NCBI RefSeq assembly: GCF_014357575.1
Contig: NZ_JACONW010000002.1
Location: 31,887-95,886, forward strand
Direction of reading: 5' to 3'
Origin: Pseudomonas folii
Lineage (GTDB): Bacteria > Pseudomonadota > Gammaproteobacteria > Pseudomonadales > Pseudomonadaceae
Length of the DNA stretch: 64,000 nt
Numbering within the stretch: position 1 is the first letter of the stretch; every line of letters begins with the position of its first letter. The position numbers were made by a program, and so were the translations under genes. The notes under the pieces are model-generated. The model searched no databases and had not been told where the DNA came from. It saw only the letters and a program-made list of their open reading frames with translations. Below, in pieces: positions 11,326 through 19,331 of this stretch.

Positions 11326-11652
11326 ATGGATTTTCTTCATCGCCTTGCCGACAAGACTGAGTGGATCATTGCCGGTCTTCTTGGCGTAATCGTCGCAAGC
11401 TGGTGGCACAAAGATGACCTGACAGACTGGAAAGCCTGGATGGTGTTCTTGGTCACTGGTGTGGCCTGCGCCCTGTATTTGACCGGTATCGTGAGTTCTT
11501 ACCTCGGGATCATCGACCCCAGCAATGTTGCTGGCGTTGGCTTCCTGCTCGGGGCGTTCGGCGGATCATTGATGACCGCCATCAATCGCGCCATCAAAGC
11601 CGCTGACCTCTGGGCTCTCATCCGCCAGAAGTTCGGGGGAGGCACCCCATGA
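11326..11652 (+). CDS. Phage holin
   Basis: The 108-residue protein starts MDFLHRLADKTEWIIAGLLG and has three hydrophobic segments (about residues 12-26, 39-60 and 67-85), a class I holin layout. The GFLLGAFGGSLMTAI stretch matches Pseudomonas phage holins. It is the first gene after the late promoter region and overlaps a second membrane protein by four bases. GGAG stands before ATG 11326. It should form the inner-membrane hole that frees the endolysin encoded at 36370. Confidence 0.8.
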   Translation: MDFLHRLADKTEWIIAGLLGVIVASWWHKDDLTDWKAWMVFLVTGVACALYLTGIVSSYLGIIDPSNVAGVGFLLGAFGGSLMTAINRAIKAADLWALIRQKFGGGTP

Positions 11653-11993
11653 CTACTCAATTTCTGAGCACCTTCTTCATCGCGATCATTTCGAGCTGGG
11701 CCACCTGGTCTGTACTGAGTGACAAGGTGCGTGACGGGATCGTAGGCAAGTTGATCTACGCCGTCATCGCGCTGGCCGGATACGCAATCGTCACCCGCGC
11801 CGAGTCCATGTACATCACTCCGACGGTGGCCGGTGTCACCTTTCACGGATCGCTGGCCCTTGCAGGGATGAGGCACATCTTCATGGTTACGTGGTGGAAG
11901 ACGGTGAAGGCGTGGCTGTGTCGCTGGATGAACTGCGAGCACTGCCTGCATCACGACGGCCGACGCGTAAAGGTCGAGCGGCGCAAGTCGTAG
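11649..11993 (+). CDS. Holin-associated membrane protein (possible second holin or antiholin)
   Basis: The 114-residue protein has hydrophobic stretches at about residues 5-22, 33-50 and 60-82 and a basic, cysteine-bearing tail (CRWMNCEHCLHHDGRRVKVERRKS). It overlaps the holin gene by four bases, so the two are co-translated. Paired holin-like genes commonly act as holin and antiholin; which does which cannot be told here. Confidence 0.65.
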   Translation: MTTQFLSTFFIAIISSWATWSVLSDKVRDGIVGKLIYAVIALAGYAIVTRAESMYITPTVAGVTFHGSLALAGMRHIFMVTWWKTVKAWLCRWMNCEHCLHHDGRRVKVERRKS

Positions 11994-12041: not shown

Positions 12042-12176
12042 ATGACCAAACGCAACTGGTACGTATCAACCCCGGGCCACGGCACCTTCCCGATGATCCT
12101 GCTCAGTCAGGCCATGGATCACGCATCGGCTCTGGCCTTTGCCCGGTCTATCTGGCCGCAATGCACTGTGGAGTGA
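12042..12176 (+). CDS. Small hypothetical phage protein (44 aa)
   Basis: The frame starts MTKRNWYVSTPGHGTFPMIL with GAGGA upstream and ends three bases before the start of the proteasome-like gene. No recognised domain. Close spacing suggests it is co-expressed with that gene and may be its partner, which is speculation. Confidence 0.55.
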   Translation: MTKRNWYVSTPGHGTFPMILLSQAMDHASALAFARSIWPQCTVE

Positions 12177-12179
12177 TTG

Positions 12180-12626
12180 ATGACGACCATTGCCTACAAA
12201 GACGGCGTGATCGCCTATGACTCTCGCTGCACGCGCGGCTCGACCATTACGGATGACGATTGCGAGAAGCTGGAAACAGTGAAAGGCGTTCACTTCCTTT
12301 GCACTGGTTGCACTTGCGACTTCGATGCGTTAATCGCGGCCTACTTTGGCGCTGCTGCCTCGGCACCAGTTGAGGCATCCGGCTATGCGGTAGATGGCGG
12401 AACACTCTGGCTGATCGGACATGACGACAAGACAGGGTTCTGGAAGAACAGAATCAGGCTGGATACGGGTGATGCTATCGGTAGTGGTTCTGCATTCGCC
12501 TTGGCCGCAATGGACATGGGCGCAACTTCTGCCGAAGCCATTGAGGCTGCGAAAAGGCGGGACACTTCTACTGGTGGGCGGGTGAGAGAGTTGCGCATTC
12601 GAGCTGAGGGTGTGCCGCAGGGTTAG
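12180..12626 (+). CDS. Proteasome/HslV-like Ntn hydrolase
   Basis: The 148-residue protein starts M-TTIAYKDGVIAYDSRCTRG. Removal of Met would expose Thr2, aligning with catalytic Thr1 of HslV (TTIVSV). Asp14 and Lys30 then stand where HslV Asp17 and Lys33 do. The C-terminal GSGSAFALAAMDMGATSAEA stretch and DTSTGG also match proteasome-fold proteins. It is shorter than HslV (about 175). Substrate is unknown; a role in processing head proteins or in host takeover is possible. It lies between lysis and terminase genes. A convergent gene begins beyond the hairpin. Confidence 0.8.
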   Translation: MTTIAYKDGVIAYDSRCTRGSTITDDDCEKLETVKGVHFLCTGCTCDFDALIAAYFGAAASAPVEASGYAVDGGTLWLIGHDDKTGFWKNRIRLDTGDAIGSGSAFALAAMDMGATSAEAIEAAKRRDTSTGGRVRELRIRAEGVPQG

Positions 12627-12641: not shown

Positions 12642-12842
12642 TTACTTGACCTTCAGCGCTTCCTGGATCTGGTCGGCGTAAGTCGAGAGCATCTTCATGT
12701 GAGCACTCAGGCTGAACTTCTGATTGCCGCTCCCTGCATATGCATGGATCAAATCTAGTGCCGCAGCAACCGCCGCAGTGCGCTTTGCGTCACCTTTCAA
12801 GGCTGAGTTGTTTGCAATAATTGGGGCGAATGTTTCAGACAT
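12642..12842 (-). CDS. Small leftward hypothetical protein (66 aa), moron-like
   Basis: ATG 12842 has AAGGAAG upstream and is preferred to an ATG further out. The product begins MSETFAPIIANNSALKGDAK and has an Ala-rich helical centre (RTAAVAAALDLIHAYAG). It runs against the late transcript, between the Ntn hydrolase and the small terminase, so it must have its own promoter and may be expressed from the lysogen. Its upstream region 12843-12928 is shared with the terminase start. No family recognised. Confidence 0.65.
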   Translation of the reverse strand: MSETFAPIIANNSALKGDAKRTAAVAAALDLIHAYAGSGNQKFSLSAHMKMLSTYADQIQEALKVK

Positions 12843-12928
12843 AACTACTTCCTTGCATTGATTGATCCTAACCAATACCGGCATCCAGCCGCTATTTCAA
12901 TACCACCTTCGTTTCCTGAGATTTACCC

Positions 12929-13546
12929 ATGACAACCAAGCAACCCGACTGGGAGGCAATCGAACGTGCCTACCGGGCCGGATTGCTTTCTGTACGAGAG
13001 ATCGCTGCATCCTGTGGTGTCTCTCACACCGCTATCCAGAAGCGGGCAAAGGCCAATAGCTGGGAGCGCGACCTCAAGGCAAAGATCAAGGCCAAGGCTG
13101 ATTCACTGGTTGCCAAACGAGAGGTTGCCACTCAGGTTGCCAGCAAAGCAGTGGAAACCGAGCGAGAGATAATCGAGCTGAATGCCGAGGTCATTGCGAA
13201 CATCCGCATGGCTCATCGGGGGGATATCTCCCGCGGTCGGAGAATGACCAACAAGCTGCTGGATGAGCTTGAGGCGCTGACCGATGAGCAAGGCACCATC
13301 AAAGAGTTGATCGCTCAGCTCAAAGATGGTGACCACGACGATGGTGAGGCGATGTCCGACATGCTGGCCTTGGCCAACAAGATGGGCGCGCTTCCTTCTC
13401 GGACCAAGACGATGAAGGAGCTGGCTGAGACGCTGAAGACGCTGGTCATGCTTGAGCGCCAGGCTTACGGGCTGGATGAGAAGGCTGGCGGCAACGATGC
13501 CGACGAATTATCGAAACTGATGGACGATCTATCGAAGGACGCCTGA
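12929..13546 (+). CDS. terS: Terminase small subunit
   Basis: The 205-residue protein begins with a helix-turn-helix (WEAIERAYRAGLLSVREIAASCGVSHTAI) that should recognise the packaging site. A long charged coiled-coil-like middle and an acidic C-terminus (NDADELSKLMDDLSKDA) follow. It lies directly before the large terminase, one base apart. The pattern matches small terminases of D3-like phages. Confidence 0.88.
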   Translation: MTTKQPDWEAIERAYRAGLLSVREIAASCGVSHTAIQKRAKANSWERDLKAKIKAKADSLVAKREVATQVASKAVETEREIIELNAEVIANIRMAHRGDISRGRRMTNKLLDELEALTDEQGTIKELIAQLKDGDHDDGEAMSDMLALANKMGALPSRTKTMKELAETLKTLVMLERQAYGLDEKAGGNDADELSKLMDDLSKDA

Positions 13547-13547
13547 T

Positions 13548-15035
13548 ATGAAGCCCGAGCACTTGAAGCTGCTCCGGGACAAGCACTGGCGCTTGAACAA
13601 TCTGTATTTGATCACGGACAAGCAGGGCAAGAAGGTCCGCTTCCGCATGACGGATGAGCAGATTGAATACTTCGAGGGCATGCACACCCGAAACATTATC
13701 CTTAAGGCTCGGCAGCTAGGGTTCACCACTGAGTGCTGCATTATCCAGTTGGACGCAGCCTTGTTTGAGGCGGCCAAGTGCGCGCTGATCGCCCACACCC
13801 TGAATGATGCCAAGCGCCTGTTCCGCGAGAAGATCAAATATGCGTATGACAACCTTCCCGCTGAGATACGCGCTGCCAACCTTGCTTCTAACGATGCTGC
13901 TGGTGAGCTTGTGTTCAGCAAGGGCGGATCGCTCTACGTGTCCACATCCTTCCGGGGCGGGACTCTACGGTATCTGCACGTATCCGAGTTCGGGAAGATC
14001 TGCGCCAAGTTTCCCCACAAAGCCAGAGAGATCGTCACCGGGGCATTCGAGGCGGTCGCCACCGATTGCTTCGTTACCATCGAATCGACGGCGGAGGGCA
14101 GGGCTGGCTACTTCTTCGATTACTCGCAGAGCGCTGAGAAGCAGCAATTGTCCGGCGTGCCGCTGGGCAAGCTCGACTGGAAGTTCTTTTTCTTCAGTTG
14201 GTGGAAGAACAAGGCCTACTGGCTCGACCCTTCAACCGCGATCATCCCTGAACGCCTGACTGATTACTTTAATGAGTTGGCTGCAAAGCTTGGCATTGTC
14301 ACCAACCCAGGCCAGCGCGCCTGGTATGCAGCCAAAGAGAAGACCCTCGGCGACGACATGAAGCGGGAATACCCGTCGATACCAGCCGAGGCCTTCCAGC
14401 AATCAATCGAAGGTGCGTACTACGCGCGCCAGTTCACAAAGCTTTATGCGGCTCAGCGCATCGGCGTGCTGCCGGACAACAGCCATCTGCCGGTGATGAC
14501 CTTCTGGGACATCGGTGTTGGCGACTCCACGGCCATCTGGTTCGTGCGTAAGGTAGGTACTGAGTTCCACGTCATCGACTTCTACCAGAACAGCGGTGAA
14601 GGCCTGCGTCACTACATGAAGGTCCTCAAGGACAAGGGTTACACCTACTCCGAACACTGGGGCCCACACGATATCGATAACCGCGAGTTCAGCAGTGATG
14701 CGAAGACTCGGCGTGAGATGGCGCGCGAAGGCTACGAAATCGACGGCCACCACTACCGCATGACGTTTCAGGTCGTGCCGAAGATCGGCGTAGATGACGG
14801 CATTGATCAGTCCCGAGAGATCCTCGCCAGTTGCGCCTTTGACGAGGCCAAGTGCGAGGAAGGTATTTCGTGCCTGGAAAACTACCGCAAGGAGTGGGAC
14901 GACAAGAAGGGCTGCTGGAAAGACCGCCCGCTGCATGACTGGTCATCCCACGCCGCAGATGCATTCCGGTACTTCGCTGTCGCCAAGAGCGCAAGGAAGC
15001 CGGTCAAATCAATCAAGATGGGATTCGCACGCTAA
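13548..15035 (+). CDS. terL: Terminase large subunit
   Basis: The 495-residue protein has an N-terminal packaging ATPase with the Walker A-like KARQLGFTT at residues 53-61. The C-terminal nuclease domain includes FWDIGVGDSTAIWF and the ending WSSHAADAFRYFA, acidic positions typical of RNase H-fold terminase nucleases. It drives DNA into the prohead and cuts it to genome length. The stop overlaps the portal start. The pattern resembles D3-like terminases. Confidence 0.95.
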   Translation: MKPEHLKLLRDKHWRLNNLYLITDKQGKKVRFRMTDEQIEYFEGMHTRNIILKARQLGFTTECCIIQLDAALFEAAKCALIAHTLNDAKRLFREKIKYAYDNLPAEIRAANLASNDAAGELVFSKGGSLYVSTSFRGGTLRYLHVSEFGKICAKFPHKAREIVTGAFEAVATDCFVTIESTAEGRAGYFFDYSQSAEKQQLSGVPLGKLDWKFFFFSWWKNKAYWLDPSTAIIPERLTDYFNELAAKLGIVTNPGQRAWYAAKEKTLGDDMKREYPSIPAEAFQQSIEGAYYARQFTKLYAAQRIGVLPDNSHLPVMTFWDIGVGDSTAIWFVRKVGTEFHVIDFYQNSGEGLRHYMKVLKDKGYTYSEHWGPHDIDNREFSSDAKTRREMAREGYEIDGHHYRMTFQVVPKIGVDDGIDQSREILASCAFDEAKCEEGISCLENYRKEWDDKKGCWKDRPLHDWSSHAADAFRYFAVAKSARKPVKSIKMGFAR

Positions 15036-16489
15036 TGGCAGACGTCACCTACACCCGCCCGGAATACGACGCGGCACAGTCCCGTTGGCGGCTGGTGCGC
15101 GACGTGTGCAAGGGCTCCGAGACGATCAAGGCCCGCGGCGATGTGTATCTGCCTCGGCCTAATCCGCACGACGACGGCAAAGAGAACAGGGCTCGCTTCG
15201 ATACCTACCTGATGCGCGCGGTGTTCTATAACGCAACCGGGCGCACCAAGAACAGTTTGGTGGGTGCAGTGTTCCGCACCTGGCCAACCCTTACCGTTCC
15301 AACGGCACTGGATTACGTGGCAAAGGACGTCGACGGGCAAGGGATCAGCATCTACCAGCAGTCGCAGTCGGTCATCGGGCACATCCTCGAAGTCGGCCGT
15401 CATGGCTTGTTAGTGGACTATCCGAGCGTTGAGCCTGGATCTACCAGCAAGGCTGACAGCGCCTCGATGGGCATTCGTCCAACCATCGCCAGCTACAACG
15501 CTGAGTGCATCATCAACTGGAAGACACGCAAGGTTGGTGGTCAGTACCTGCTGAGTCTTGTGGTGCTGAAAGAGTTGGTCGACGAAGACACCGAGGATGG
15601 TTTCGGCGTTGAGAGCAAAGATCGGTACCGCGTACTGCGCCTGAATGACTCCGGTTTGTACGAGCAGGAGCTATGGGCGAAGGATGGCGGTGGCTGGTCG
15701 GTGACTGACGCGCGCACGCCTCTGGACGGCTCAGGCAGGCCTTGGCGCTTGATCCCCTTCATGTTCATCGGCAGCGAGAACAACGATTCGTCGATTGATG
15801 ACTCTCCGCTGTACGACATGGCCGAGATCAACATCGGCCATTACCACAACAGTGCGGACTATGAGGATTCGGTCTGGTTCTCGGGTCAGCCCCAGTTCTG
15901 GATTGCTGGCCTCGACGAAGCATGGCGCGATCACCTGGAAGAGAACGGCATCTACGTCGGCTCGCGTGCGCCTCTGACGCTTCCCGCGCAAGGATCATGC
16001 GGGTTTGCCCAGCCTGAGCCCAACACGCTCGTGAAAGAGGCTATGGACGGCAAGAAAGAAGACATGGTGTCACTCGGTGCCCGGCTGATTGAGCGTGGCA
16101 GCGCGGTGAAGACTGCGACCCAGGCCGACAACGACAGCGCGGCAGAGCACAGCATTCTGTCCCTGGCCGTGAGCAACGTAAGCGAAGGTTACAGCCAATG
16201 CCTGATGTGGATGGGCATGTTCGAGAATGTGGCTGGCGAAGCGCTGTTGAAGCTCAACCAGGACTTCACGCAGGTCAGCCTTGACGCGGCAATCATGGCC
16301 AGCCTGTTCAATGCAGTGCAGGCCGGGCAACTTCCAGCGTCGGACTTCTGGCAGTACCTGCGTGATCGAGGGGTGATCGACCCAGAGAAGACTGACGACG
16401 ATATCCGTGGCGAGCTTGAAGCCAATCCAGTGGGCTTAGGCCTCGATGATGAGGACAAACCAGATGGCGGCCAACCAAGCGATCCTTGA
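15035..16489 (+). CDS. Portal protein (DUF4055 family)
   Basis: The 484-residue protein starts MADVTYTRPEYDAAQSRWRL and contains FYNATGRTKNSLVGAVFR and LEVGRHGLLVDYP, typical of DUF4055 proteins that occupy the portal position in D3-like phages. It should form the dodecameric ring through which DNA passes. It lies between terminase and minor head gene, overlapping both. Confidence 0.88.
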   Translation: MADVTYTRPEYDAAQSRWRLVRDVCKGSETIKARGDVYLPRPNPHDDGKENRARFDTYLMRAVFYNATGRTKNSLVGAVFRTWPTLTVPTALDYVAKDVDGQGISIYQQSQSVIGHILEVGRHGLLVDYPSVEPGSTSKADSASMGIRPTIASYNAECIINWKTRKVGGQYLLSLVVLKELVDEDTEDGFGVESKDRYRVLRLNDSGLYEQELWAKDGGGWSVTDARTPLDGSGRPWRLIPFMFIGSENNDSSIDDSPLYDMAEINIGHYHNSADYEDSVWFSGQPQFWIAGLDEAWRDHLEENGIYVGSRAPLTLPAQGSCGFAQPEPNTLVKEAMDGKKEDMVSLGARLIERGSAVKTATQADNDSAAEHSILSLAVSNVSEGYSQCLMWMGMFENVAGEALLKLNQDFTQVSLDAAIMASLFNAVQAGQLPASDFWQYLRDRGVIDPEKTDDDIRGELEANPVGLGLDDEDKPDGGQPSDP

Positions 16490-17531
16490 TGCCACTATCC
16501 GGCACGCAGTGTTCCTCGAAAGACTGAAAGCAGGGGAGGTGAAGAAGTTCGCCCCCTTTCTGAAGGAGATAGACCGCTCGTTGCGTGAGCGCCTGACCAA
16601 GTCCGACTTGACTGGGTTTACACGAAAACGCCTGGAGAAGCTGCTCGACGAAGTGGATAGTCTGCTTTTGGGCATATTCAACCGGTTTGGCGATCAGCTC
16701 ACGCTGGACCTGATCGACCTGGCTAACTACGAGGCTCAGTTCGAGGCGACGAGCCTGACCCGGGCAGTACCGGTCGGGATCAGCTTTGAGGCTGCCGTTC
16801 CTTCGCTTGCGGCGATCAGATCCGCAGTGCTGAGCAACCCGCTGAGCATCAGAGACGGCGGCAAGCTACTCAAGCCATTCATCAAGGACTGGACGACGGC
16901 AGAGCGTGCGCGTGTCACCGGCGCAATTCGGCAAGGCTTCTTCGAAGGGCAGACGAACTACCAAATCCTGCAGAACATTCGCGGCACCAAGGCGGCTGGG
17001 TACGGCGACGGCATTTTGTCTGTGACCGATCGCAACGCAGCAACGGTGGTGCGCACTGCCATCCAGCACGTTGCCAGTCAGGCGCGGATGGAAACGGCCA
17101 AGGCCAACACCGACATCGTTACCGAGATTCAGCTGGTCGCCACGCTCGACAGCAAGACCAGCCAGGTATGTCGCACCCTGGACAAGCGGCGCTTCCCGGT
17201 CGATTCAGGGCCGCGGCCGCCGTTTCACCCAAATTGCCGAACCACCTTTGTCTTGCTGACGCGCCTGAGCGAGATGTTTGCCCAGGGCGCTACTCGGGCC
17301 TCACAGAACGGCCAGGTCAGCGCGGACCTCGACTATTACCACTGGCTCCAGCAGCAGCCTGCAGCCTTCCAAGACAAGGCGATCGGCAAAGTCCGCGGCG
17401 CTCTGTTCCGTAATGGCGGCCTGAGCGTTAAGCGATTCTCCGAGCTACAGCTCGACCGCAACTTCGAACCACTGACACTCTTAGAGATGAAGGCCCTTGA
17501 GCCTTTGGCCTTCGAGCGCGCAGGCATCTGA
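16464..17531 (+). CDS. Minor head protein (Mu F/SPP1 gp7 type)
   Basis: The 355-residue protein has the C-terminal head-morphogenesis domain: TAIQHVASQARMETAKAN, then SKTSQVCRTLDKRRFPVDSG and PPFHPNCRTTFVLL, with the conserved C...PPFHPNCR pattern of the Phage_Mu_F family. It probably assists prohead assembly or is ejected. ATG 16464 is preferred (GAGGA upstream); an in-frame ATG at 16446 exists. It overlaps the portal gene end. Confidence 0.88.
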   Translation: MAANQAILDATIRHAVFLERLKAGEVKKFAPFLKEIDRSLRERLTKSDLTGFTRKRLEKLLDEVDSLLLGIFNRFGDQLTLDLIDLANYEAQFEATSLTRAVPVGISFEAAVPSLAAIRSAVLSNPLSIRDGGKLLKPFIKDWTTAERARVTGAIRQGFFEGQTNYQILQNIRGTKAAGYGDGILSVTDRNAATVVRTAIQHVASQARMETAKANTDIVTEIQLVATLDSKTSQVCRTLDKRRFPVDSGPRPPFHPNCRTTFVLLTRLSEMFAQGATRASQNGQVSADLDYYHWLQQQPAAFQDKAIGKVRGALFRNGGLSVKRFSELQLDRNFEPLTLLEMKALEPLAFERAGI

Positions 17532-17571: not shown

Positions 17572-18288
17572 ATGAAATACCTGATCGACAAAGCAGCATA
17601 CGACGCGCTCGAACCCTCGTTACAGGCCTTCTACAAGGCGCAGGGCGAGGACTACGTGCTGGCTATTGAAGGATTGCCCGCTCCAGAAGACACCGCAGGC
17701 CTTAAAGCCAAGAATGATGAGCTTTTGGCTGAGCTGAAAGCCAATAAGACCAAGGCGCGTGAGGCCGAAGAAGCCGCTCGCCGTGCCGCTGAGGAGAACG
17801 CCCGCAAGTCAGGGGACACTGAGGCGCTTGATCGTAGCTGGTCAGAAAAGCACTCAGCAGCCTTGGCCGAGAAGGAAGGCACGCTAACTGCGCTACAGGC
17901 TCAAGTCCACGCGCTGACTGTCGGTGCTACTGCGGCTCGACTGGCCGGTGAACTGGCAGTTCAAGGCTCGGCAATGGTGCTGCAGCAAATCATCGAGCCG
18001 CGCCTCTCCATGCAGATTCGCGAAGGAAAGCCCGCCGTCGTGGTGCTCGACGACCAGCTTCGGCCTACCGCCTTGACGGTTGATGAGTTCAAAACCCAAT
18101 TGTTCAACGATGCCGCTCTGGCACCGCTGATTGCTTCAAGCAGGGCTTCTGGTGGCGGGGCTACCGGTGGCAAAGGCGGCGGGGCCGCAAAAACGTGGGA
18201 CCAACTTACCGGGATGGAGCGAGTAGAGCTCCGCCGAACCAACCCCGCCGAACATGCGCGCCTGAAAGCCGCTGCTGAGGCCAAGTAA
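17572..18288 (+). CDS. Head scaffolding protein
   Basis: The 238-residue acidic protein starts MKYLIDKAAYDALEPSLQAF. A long charged, Ala/Glu/Lys-rich coiled coil spans about residues 40-120, and a Gly-rich linker (ASGGGATGGKGGGAAK) precedes a helical C-terminus (MERVELRRTNPAEHARLKA). This is the layout of scaffolds that bind capsid by their C-terminus. It lies directly before the major capsid gene. AGGGGGA precedes ATG 17572. Confidence 0.82.
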   Translation: MKYLIDKAAYDALEPSLQAFYKAQGEDYVLAIEGLPAPEDTAGLKAKNDELLAELKANKTKAREAEEAARRAAEENARKSGDTEALDRSWSEKHSAALAEKEGTLTALQAQVHALTVGATAARLAGELAVQGSAMVLQQIIEPRLSMQIREGKPAVVVLDDQLRPTALTVDEFKTQLFNDAALAPLIASSRASGGGATGGKGGGAAKTWDQLTGMERVELRRTNPAEHARLKAAAEAK

Positions 18289-18302: not shown

Positions 18303-19331
18303 ATGCCTACCATTCTCTCGGACGTCGTATTTCGCGACGAGCTGCGCGACTACATCAGCGTTAATACCGTTGAGCGTACCGCGTTCTTCCAGTCGGGCAT
18401 CCTGACCAATAACTCGGATATGTCCCAGTTGCTGGCAAGCCCGTCGAACACTTTCACCATTCCGTGGTGGGTCGATCTGGATGCGTCTATCGAGTCGAAC
18501 TACTCGAACGACGTATACACCGACATCGCTGTGCCGTTGTCCGTTACCAGTGCTTCCATGCAGGCGCGCGCTGCGTACCTCAACGAAGGCTGGAACTGCA
18601 TGAATCTGGTGAAGAACATCACCAAGCAGGACCCGCTGGAGTTCGTAGCAGGTCGCCTGATCTCCTACTGGATGCGTGTTGCTCAGCGCCGCACCATCGC
18701 CACGGCTGTGGGTATCTACAACGACAACGTAGCCAGCAACGGTGGCGACATGGTTGTGGACGCAGGCGGCATCATCAACCCGACGGCAGTGATTCGCGCC
18801 AAGGGCTCGATGGGCGACTACACCGGTCAACTGGGCGGCCTGAGCGTCATCGCGATGCACTCAGCTGTGCACACCGAGCTGTCGATCCAGAACCAGATCG
18901 ACTTCGCGCCAATTGCTGATCAAACCCCAGAGTTCGGTCGCTTCCAGGGCATGATCGTTGTTCTGGACGATGGCCTGCCTGTGATCGGTACGGGCGCATC
19001 TGCCAAGTACCTCTCAATCATCTTCGGCCCTGGCGCAATGGGTTACGCCGAAGAGCAGCCAGAAGGTCTGGACGGTCTGGAATACGAGCGAGCGCCTGAT
19101 CGTGGCAACGGTGGCGGTACTGAGACCCTGTGGACTCGTCGCAACTTCGTTGTGCATCCGCTGGGCTACTCGTTCACCAGCGCAACCATCACCGGTACCC
19201 CGACCACCACTCGCCCGATCTCGGCGAACTGGGCGGACCTGGCGCTGGCTACCAACTGGGAGCGCAAGTTCGCTCGCAAGCAAGTGCCACTGGCGTTCAT
19301 CACTTCCCTCGTAACCGCTCCAGCGGCCTAG
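18303..19331 (+). CDS. Major capsid protein
   Basis: The 342-residue protein starts MPTILSDVVFRDELRDYISV. Its position after scaffold and length are right for a siphovirus coat protein. The segments DLDASIESNYSNDVYTD and AMHSAVHTELSIQNQIDF resemble capsid proteins of D3-like Pseudomonas phages with HK97-type folds. No N-terminal delta domain or protease gene is evident, consistent with a separate scaffold. Confidence 0.88.
   Translation: MPTILSDVVFRDELRDYISVNTVERTAFFQSGILTNNSDMSQLLASPSNTFTIPWWVDLDASIESNYSNDVYTDIAVPLSVTSASMQARAAYLNEGWNCMNLVKNITKQDPLEFVAGRLISYWMRVAQRRTIATAVGIYNDNVASNGGDMVVDAGGIINPTAVIRAKGSMGDYTGQLGGLSVIAMHSAVHTELSIQNQIDFAPIADQTPEFGRFQGMIVVLDDGLPVIGTGASAKYLSIIFGPGAMGYAEEQPEGLDGLEYERAPDRGNGGGTETLWTRRNFVVHPLGYSFTSATITGTPTTTRPISANWADLALATNWERKFARKQVPLAFITSLVTAPAA

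Follow-up and report, generated by a model that had tools for sequence, protein, structure and literature searches.

The 64,000-nucleotide stretch of Pseudomonas folii DNA analysed here (the window; contig NZ_JACONW010000002.1, positions 31,887 to 95,886) carries on its forward strand, at 12180..12626, an intact open reading frame (ORF) whose product is almost certainly a member of the PPH family of proteasome-like N-terminal threonine hydrolases, an assignment based on its match to PHROG 1040, a predicted structural model and residue conservation. The ORF translates into 148 residues, as stated in the original prediction made from the sequence of this region, and the PPH residues marked in the product are Thr2, Asp14, Lys30, Gly43, GSG101-103, Asp128 and TGG131-133. 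The sequence GGAG at 12170..12173 (forward strand) is likely the ribosome-binding site, with the ATG of PPH 6 nt on. Upstream lie, on the same strand, two holin genes (11329..11652, phrog_2359; 11649..11993, phrog_2508) and a 44-residue ORF (12042..12176, phrog_8532), and downstream an ORF of 66 or 80 residues on the reverse strand (12642..12842 or 12642-12884, phrog_5901) and, again on the forward strand, the gene for the terminase small subunit (12929..13546, phrog_1206). The predicted position of PPH between the two holins and the small terminase is thus borne out by the PHROG labels, and the two short ORFs are variable slot genes with no assigned function. The forward strand continues with the terminase large subunit (13548..15035, phrog_2 and phrog_2472), a portal of the DUF4055 type (15035..16489, phrog_145), a Mu F-like head morphogenesis protein (16446..17531, PF04233), a head scaffolding protein (17572..18288, phrog_206) and the major head protein (18303..19331, phrog_247). 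From these genes and the named relatives we infer that the window represents a prophage whose host is of Pseudomonas type, and the gene at 12180-12626 is the sole PPH match in that genome.

The window protein matches PHROG 1040 ("peptidase HslV family") at 3.7e-38, while the Pfam Proteasome model (PF00227) aligns to residues 4-52 with 17.7 bits, under its curated cut-off of 22.4, and the archaeal and bacterial beta models of NCBIfam also score below threshold. Among the 60 solved-structure profile matches listed, 59 are proteasome beta chains, the remaining one is a designed protein, and HslV is absent. In the profile alignment, GSGSAFALAAMD and RDTSTGG correspond to proteasome-beta segments, in line with the earlier proposal that the former and DTSTGG fit the fold, RDxxTGG being a motif typical of proteasome beta. 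Set against the HslV encoded by the host, the protein gave a weak hhalign match (probability 4%, E 0.01). The structural model conforms to the N-terminal-nucleophile hydrolase fold that had been predicted, but HslV and proteasome beta are tied within 1 Z unit, and we dropped the fold as an arbiter between the two. The original label "HslV-like" thus fits in part: in fold HslV ties with proteasome beta, but the sequence matches and the RDxxTGG motif point to proteasome beta.

The equivalence of Thr2, Asp14 and Lys30 to Thr1, Asp17 and Lys33, proposed at the outset, is agreed upon by the sub-threshold Pfam profile, the alignments with solved beta chains and the model, in which residue 2 superposes on residue 1 of HslV and of the beta chains. 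The triad is conserved in homologues: T2, D14, K30 and G43 are kept in 147, 146, 149 and 148, respectively, of 149 distinct proteins. There is no propeptide, and the notion of a "self-processing" protease is not supported, since just the initiator methionine precedes Thr2; an M/V-TTI start is found in all 81 loci of the close-locus set (80 from IMG/VR plus the window). Such an initiator methionine before threonine is normally taken off by methionine aminopeptidase. The only helices in the model span residues 48-55, 104-112 and 117-127, with H2 and H5 missing and residues 143-148 modelled at low confidence. The ratio of nonsynonymous to synonymous substitution rates (dN/dS) has a median of 0.085 and a maximum of 0.48 over 737 pairs, indicating that the ORF is conserved beyond chance under purifying selection. 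We regard PPH as probably an active peptidase. Variant active sites were also encountered: RHEph10-like PPH proteins (L174:5001-5453, L189:865-1320) start M-SVVVYHDGV or M-SVVVYHEGV with Asp and Lys kept, so that, by sequence, their nucleophile would be Ser in place of Thr, and in two Vibrio-type PPH proteins (L086:8811-9248 and L190) Glu replaces the Asp17 equivalent (AYESR versus AYDSR).

The enzyme had been called unusual in phages, a view not borne out by a tblastn search (E up to 0.01) in which 498 of 50,697 phage records matched, 162 of them covering at least 80% of the query. Among the matches listed are lambdoid Pseudomonas phages, Nankokuvirus, Jerseyvirus, Kagunavirus, Vibrio and Rhizobium phages, and large myoviruses. 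As the family was already described in 2021 (PMC8665760, cited here from excerpts), a phage-borne member is not surprising in itself. Within the genus, PPH occurs in 10 of 99 genomes, the window's own counted, with an internal stop in one of the ten; one relative (G134:C1:271961-272224) matches at residues 52-139 only and contains an internal TGA, and is thus probably a decaying copy.

Around the close loci the stable neighbours are the portal (70 of 81) and the Mu F-like gene (68), and the small ORFs change, the 44-residue and 66-residue ORFs each being present in 8. Of 99 regions surrounding PPH, 12 have a match to the 44-residue ORF, with which PPH had been said to be paired, and in 6 the two are adjacent; we rejected this ORF as a partner. 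A single universal upstream partner was likewise rejected, as upstream families vary by phage group (phrog_15190, 3540, 9557, 4947, 14834, 11756, 8532 and Acb2); L011 and L012 are identical over the 40 nt 3' of PPH, yet have different upstream genes. The phrog_15190 family (about 62-76 residues) recurs 5' of PPH in L012, L013, L015, L026, L039, L061, L087 and L088, and may, with phrog_3540 and phrog_9557, be another accessory or counter-defence gene set. We conclude that the window gene sits in a variable holin-terminase slot of variable occupancy, and that it encodes a well-conserved minimal proteasome-family peptidase, predicted to be active and carried as an optional gene.

One recurrent upstream neighbour is the Acb2/Tad1 hairpin protein (PF24729; solved relatives 8h2j and 8ixz), an anti-CBASS sponge according to its Pfam family, and excerpts of PMC12043709 describe Acb2 as sequestering defence signals. 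Using a local profile on the 156 distinct PPH loci having 600 nt of upstream DNA, we found Acb2 within 600 nt 5' of PPH in 27 and within 30 nt in 14. The phages are of lambdoid type, as is the window, in 24 of the 27; two are RHEph10-like (L174, L189), with the stop codon of Acb2 overlapping the start of PPH and the two genes at another genome position, and one is L231, whose order is endolysin, Rz-like spanin, Acb2, PPH, terminase small and large subunits, portal (phrog_156) and scaffold. In L342, Acb2 lies about 2 kb 5' of PPH. Searches upheld the identity of Acb2 in L231, L189 and L342 and the gene labels of L231. BLASTP finds no similarity between the terminase and portal of L231 and those of the window. 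As a control, phages were fetched by NinG, independently of PPH: 49 of 80 NinG loci were kept, the other 31 having under 9 kb downstream, and PPH was counted in 8 of the 49 once the spurious frames in L105, L110, L159 and L162 had been removed from 12 apparent matches. Over whole records, Acb2 is present in 12 of 49 PPH-bearing contigs (10/44 plus 2/5) versus 3 of 41 controls lacking PPH (p 0.045), and in the NinG-anchored set alone in 4/8 versus 3/41 (p 0.009), counts that ignore the kinship of the phages.

That disregard of kinship is one of several points that weigh against a functional link between the two genes. The window itself has no Acb2, 129 of the 156 PPH loci have none in the 600 nt 5' of the gene, all but three of the 27 positive loci belong to a single phage group, and Acb2 was found nowhere in 16 of 19 named PPH phages. 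In UP17, whose homologue is C-terminally extended, PPH and Acb2 are both present but about 5 kb apart, and in L071 and L137 Acb2 lies 2-3 kb 3' of PPH. Conversely, PPH occurs within 3 kb on either side in 2 of 142 Acb2-anchored loci, one being the L231 contig already known, in a set ranked by likeness to the Acb2 of L231 that leaves out most lambdoid cases. L231 is not a wholly independent case, since NinB is present there and its lysis-terminase slot is that of the window, and only the RHEph10-like pair is clearly elsewhere in the genome. Three phages with Acb2 and no PPH carry Acb2 2-3 kb after NinG, about the place of PPH elsewhere, and the sharing of one slot thus suffices to account for much of the association. 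The activity and oligomer state of PPH are, moreover, predictions.

Judged by gene neighbourhood alone, counter-defence is nevertheless likely the best supported role. Removal of the methionine would expose Thr2 as the nucleophile, to be activated by Lys30 and Asp14, and the subunits may form a ring or a smaller oligomer, not necessarily arranged as in HslV because helix H2 is missing. The enzyme would cleave a polypeptide that is flexible or unfolded and that reaches it without ATP or with the help of a host chaperone, and its target might be a defence or stress protein of the host. This last step, the weakest, is suggested by Acb2 sharing the slot and, in some related phages, lying directly 5' of PPH. 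That the gene encodes a PPH-family N-terminal threonine peptidase, placed in a variable slot, operating with no phage unfoldase and likely serving counter-defence, we put at a little under an even chance, and the counter-defence role taken by itself is somewhat more tentative still. Rather unlikely, in our estimate, is the bolder proposal that in PPH the proteasome family would have its first counter-defence enzyme, a threonine protease removing a host immune or abortive-infection protein independently of ATP and joined with the cyclic-nucleotide sponge Acb2 by more than one phage lineage in a two-gene cassette against CBASS-type signalling. If the Acb2 link and the accessory slot reflect function, the role of PPH becomes directly testable; if the link is a mere shared slot, PPH is an ordinary accessory peptidase gene. 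Among the papers listed in searches of an open-licence PMC library we saw none on PPH function besides PMC8665760, a search joining Acb2, phage and proteasome found none, and the Acb2 neighbourhood of PPH appears in none of the listed papers that were opened; a table in the excerpted part of PMC7289586 includes a "proteasome-like" phage gene.

Of the other roles, the one that fares best, although we think it improbable, is that PPH affects lysis timing or late protein quality control, being co-expressed with lysis genes. Besides its place between holins and terminase in the window, PPH is directly followed by a holin gene and an endolysin gene in two phages, SETP7 and SZH-1. In L231 it comes just 3' of the genes for endolysin, spanin and Acb2, and in UP17 a lysozyme gene is three genes away; KPP10 has the endolysin about 3.5 kb from PPH, and in AH02 PPH precedes the holin by 2.6 kb. 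Excerpts of PMC11841896 assign a "peptidase HslV family" protein to the lysis module of the phages described there. However, no annotated lysis gene adjoins PPH in RHEph10, TM40, SPFM17, Caitlin, phiA009 or the Vibrio phages L1 and 1.131.O, in which many PPH neighbours are annotated only as "hypothetical", and 41 of the 49 NinG-anchored relatives do without PPH.

Considerably less probable is an action through the host protease, in which PPH would dock on host HslU or enter host HslV rings and so redirect or poison HslUV. On contig C201 of the host, hslU and hslV are neighbouring genes, the predicted fold of PPH is that of HslV, and the AAA_2 unfoldase domain has no match in any of 53 PPH-bearing phage records; the last result agrees with the predicted lack of an HslU-like unfoldase nearby, hslU being found only elsewhere in the host genome, and led us to reject coupling to a phage-encoded unfoldase. 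HslU docks on the H1-H2 face of HslV. The sequence similarity between PPH and host HslV is marginal, however, and in place of the H1-H2 pair of HslV the model shows a single helix (48-55), as excerpts of PMC8665760 also describe for PPH. Repression of host hslUV is treated in the accessible part of PMC12345140.

Equally improbable in our estimate is a role in capsid maturation, with PPH as the protease degrading the scaffold or trimming the head proteins of phages whose head module has no canonical prohead protease. Peptidases S78, S14 and S49 are found in 0/44 large PPH-bearing contigs (E up to 0.001; the named phages lay outside this search), Vibrio phage 1.131.O has its PPH gene within the head-tail connector block, and PF04233 Mu F head proteins occur in 37/44 PPH contigs and 5/9 named phages. 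In the NinG-anchored control, however, Mu F heads were about equally common with PPH (6/8) and without it (32/41; p 1.0), indicating that they do not need PPH and that head type is background, and a replacement of the prohead protease by PPH was dropped on this result. In addition, PPH is found in different positions (close to lysis genes, inside the connector block or among hypothetical genes), AH02 has no Mu F match and L231 a different portal family. Least likely of all, PPH would be a connectase-like ligase or amidase with an N-terminal nucleophile and no protease function, for its small size and its kinship to connectase, a monomeric protein ligase (PMC8665760), are set against a model lacking the long strand 3-4 insertion that is the signature of connectase in the excerpts of that paper and against the hydrolytic residues kept in PPH proteins.

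Among known systems, HslV (ClpQ) differs from PPH, which is 26 residues shorter than the 174-residue Escherichia coli chain (1e94_A), lacks helix H2, has RDxxTGG where HslV has GDICxxTN and, as no AAA_2 gene was found in the PPH phages searched, has no dedicated HslU partner there. Proteasome beta subunits resemble PPH in giving the top sequence matches among solved structures and in the GSG and RDxx(S/T)GG motifs, but PPH is far shorter and falls under the Pfam and NCBIfam cut-offs. PPH is also shorter than the beta-proteobacterial proteasome homolog BPH, a 183-residue chain with a long acidic pore loop (PMC8665760), and lacks H2. The large myoviruses UP17, PsgM04F and KP13-16 encode longer, C-terminally extended homologues (L090:12005-12697, L176:4659-5348, L175:5001-5915), and the genes that precede them are related to one another (phrog_14834 in PsgM04F, tblastn matches to it in the other two); perhaps these are the RPC family of PMC8665760. 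The closest likeness is to PPH as described in the excerpts of that paper, where genomic context gave no hint of function: a length near 140, conservation of Thr/Ser1-Asp17-Lys33 and of Gly47, the absence of a propeptide, of H2 and of a C-terminal S12/H5, and occurrence in phages and prophages, the window gene being near terminase, portal and head genes. The features compared show no difference between that family and the window protein, and what is new here is not the PPH family but the Acb2 neighbourhood in PPH-related phages.
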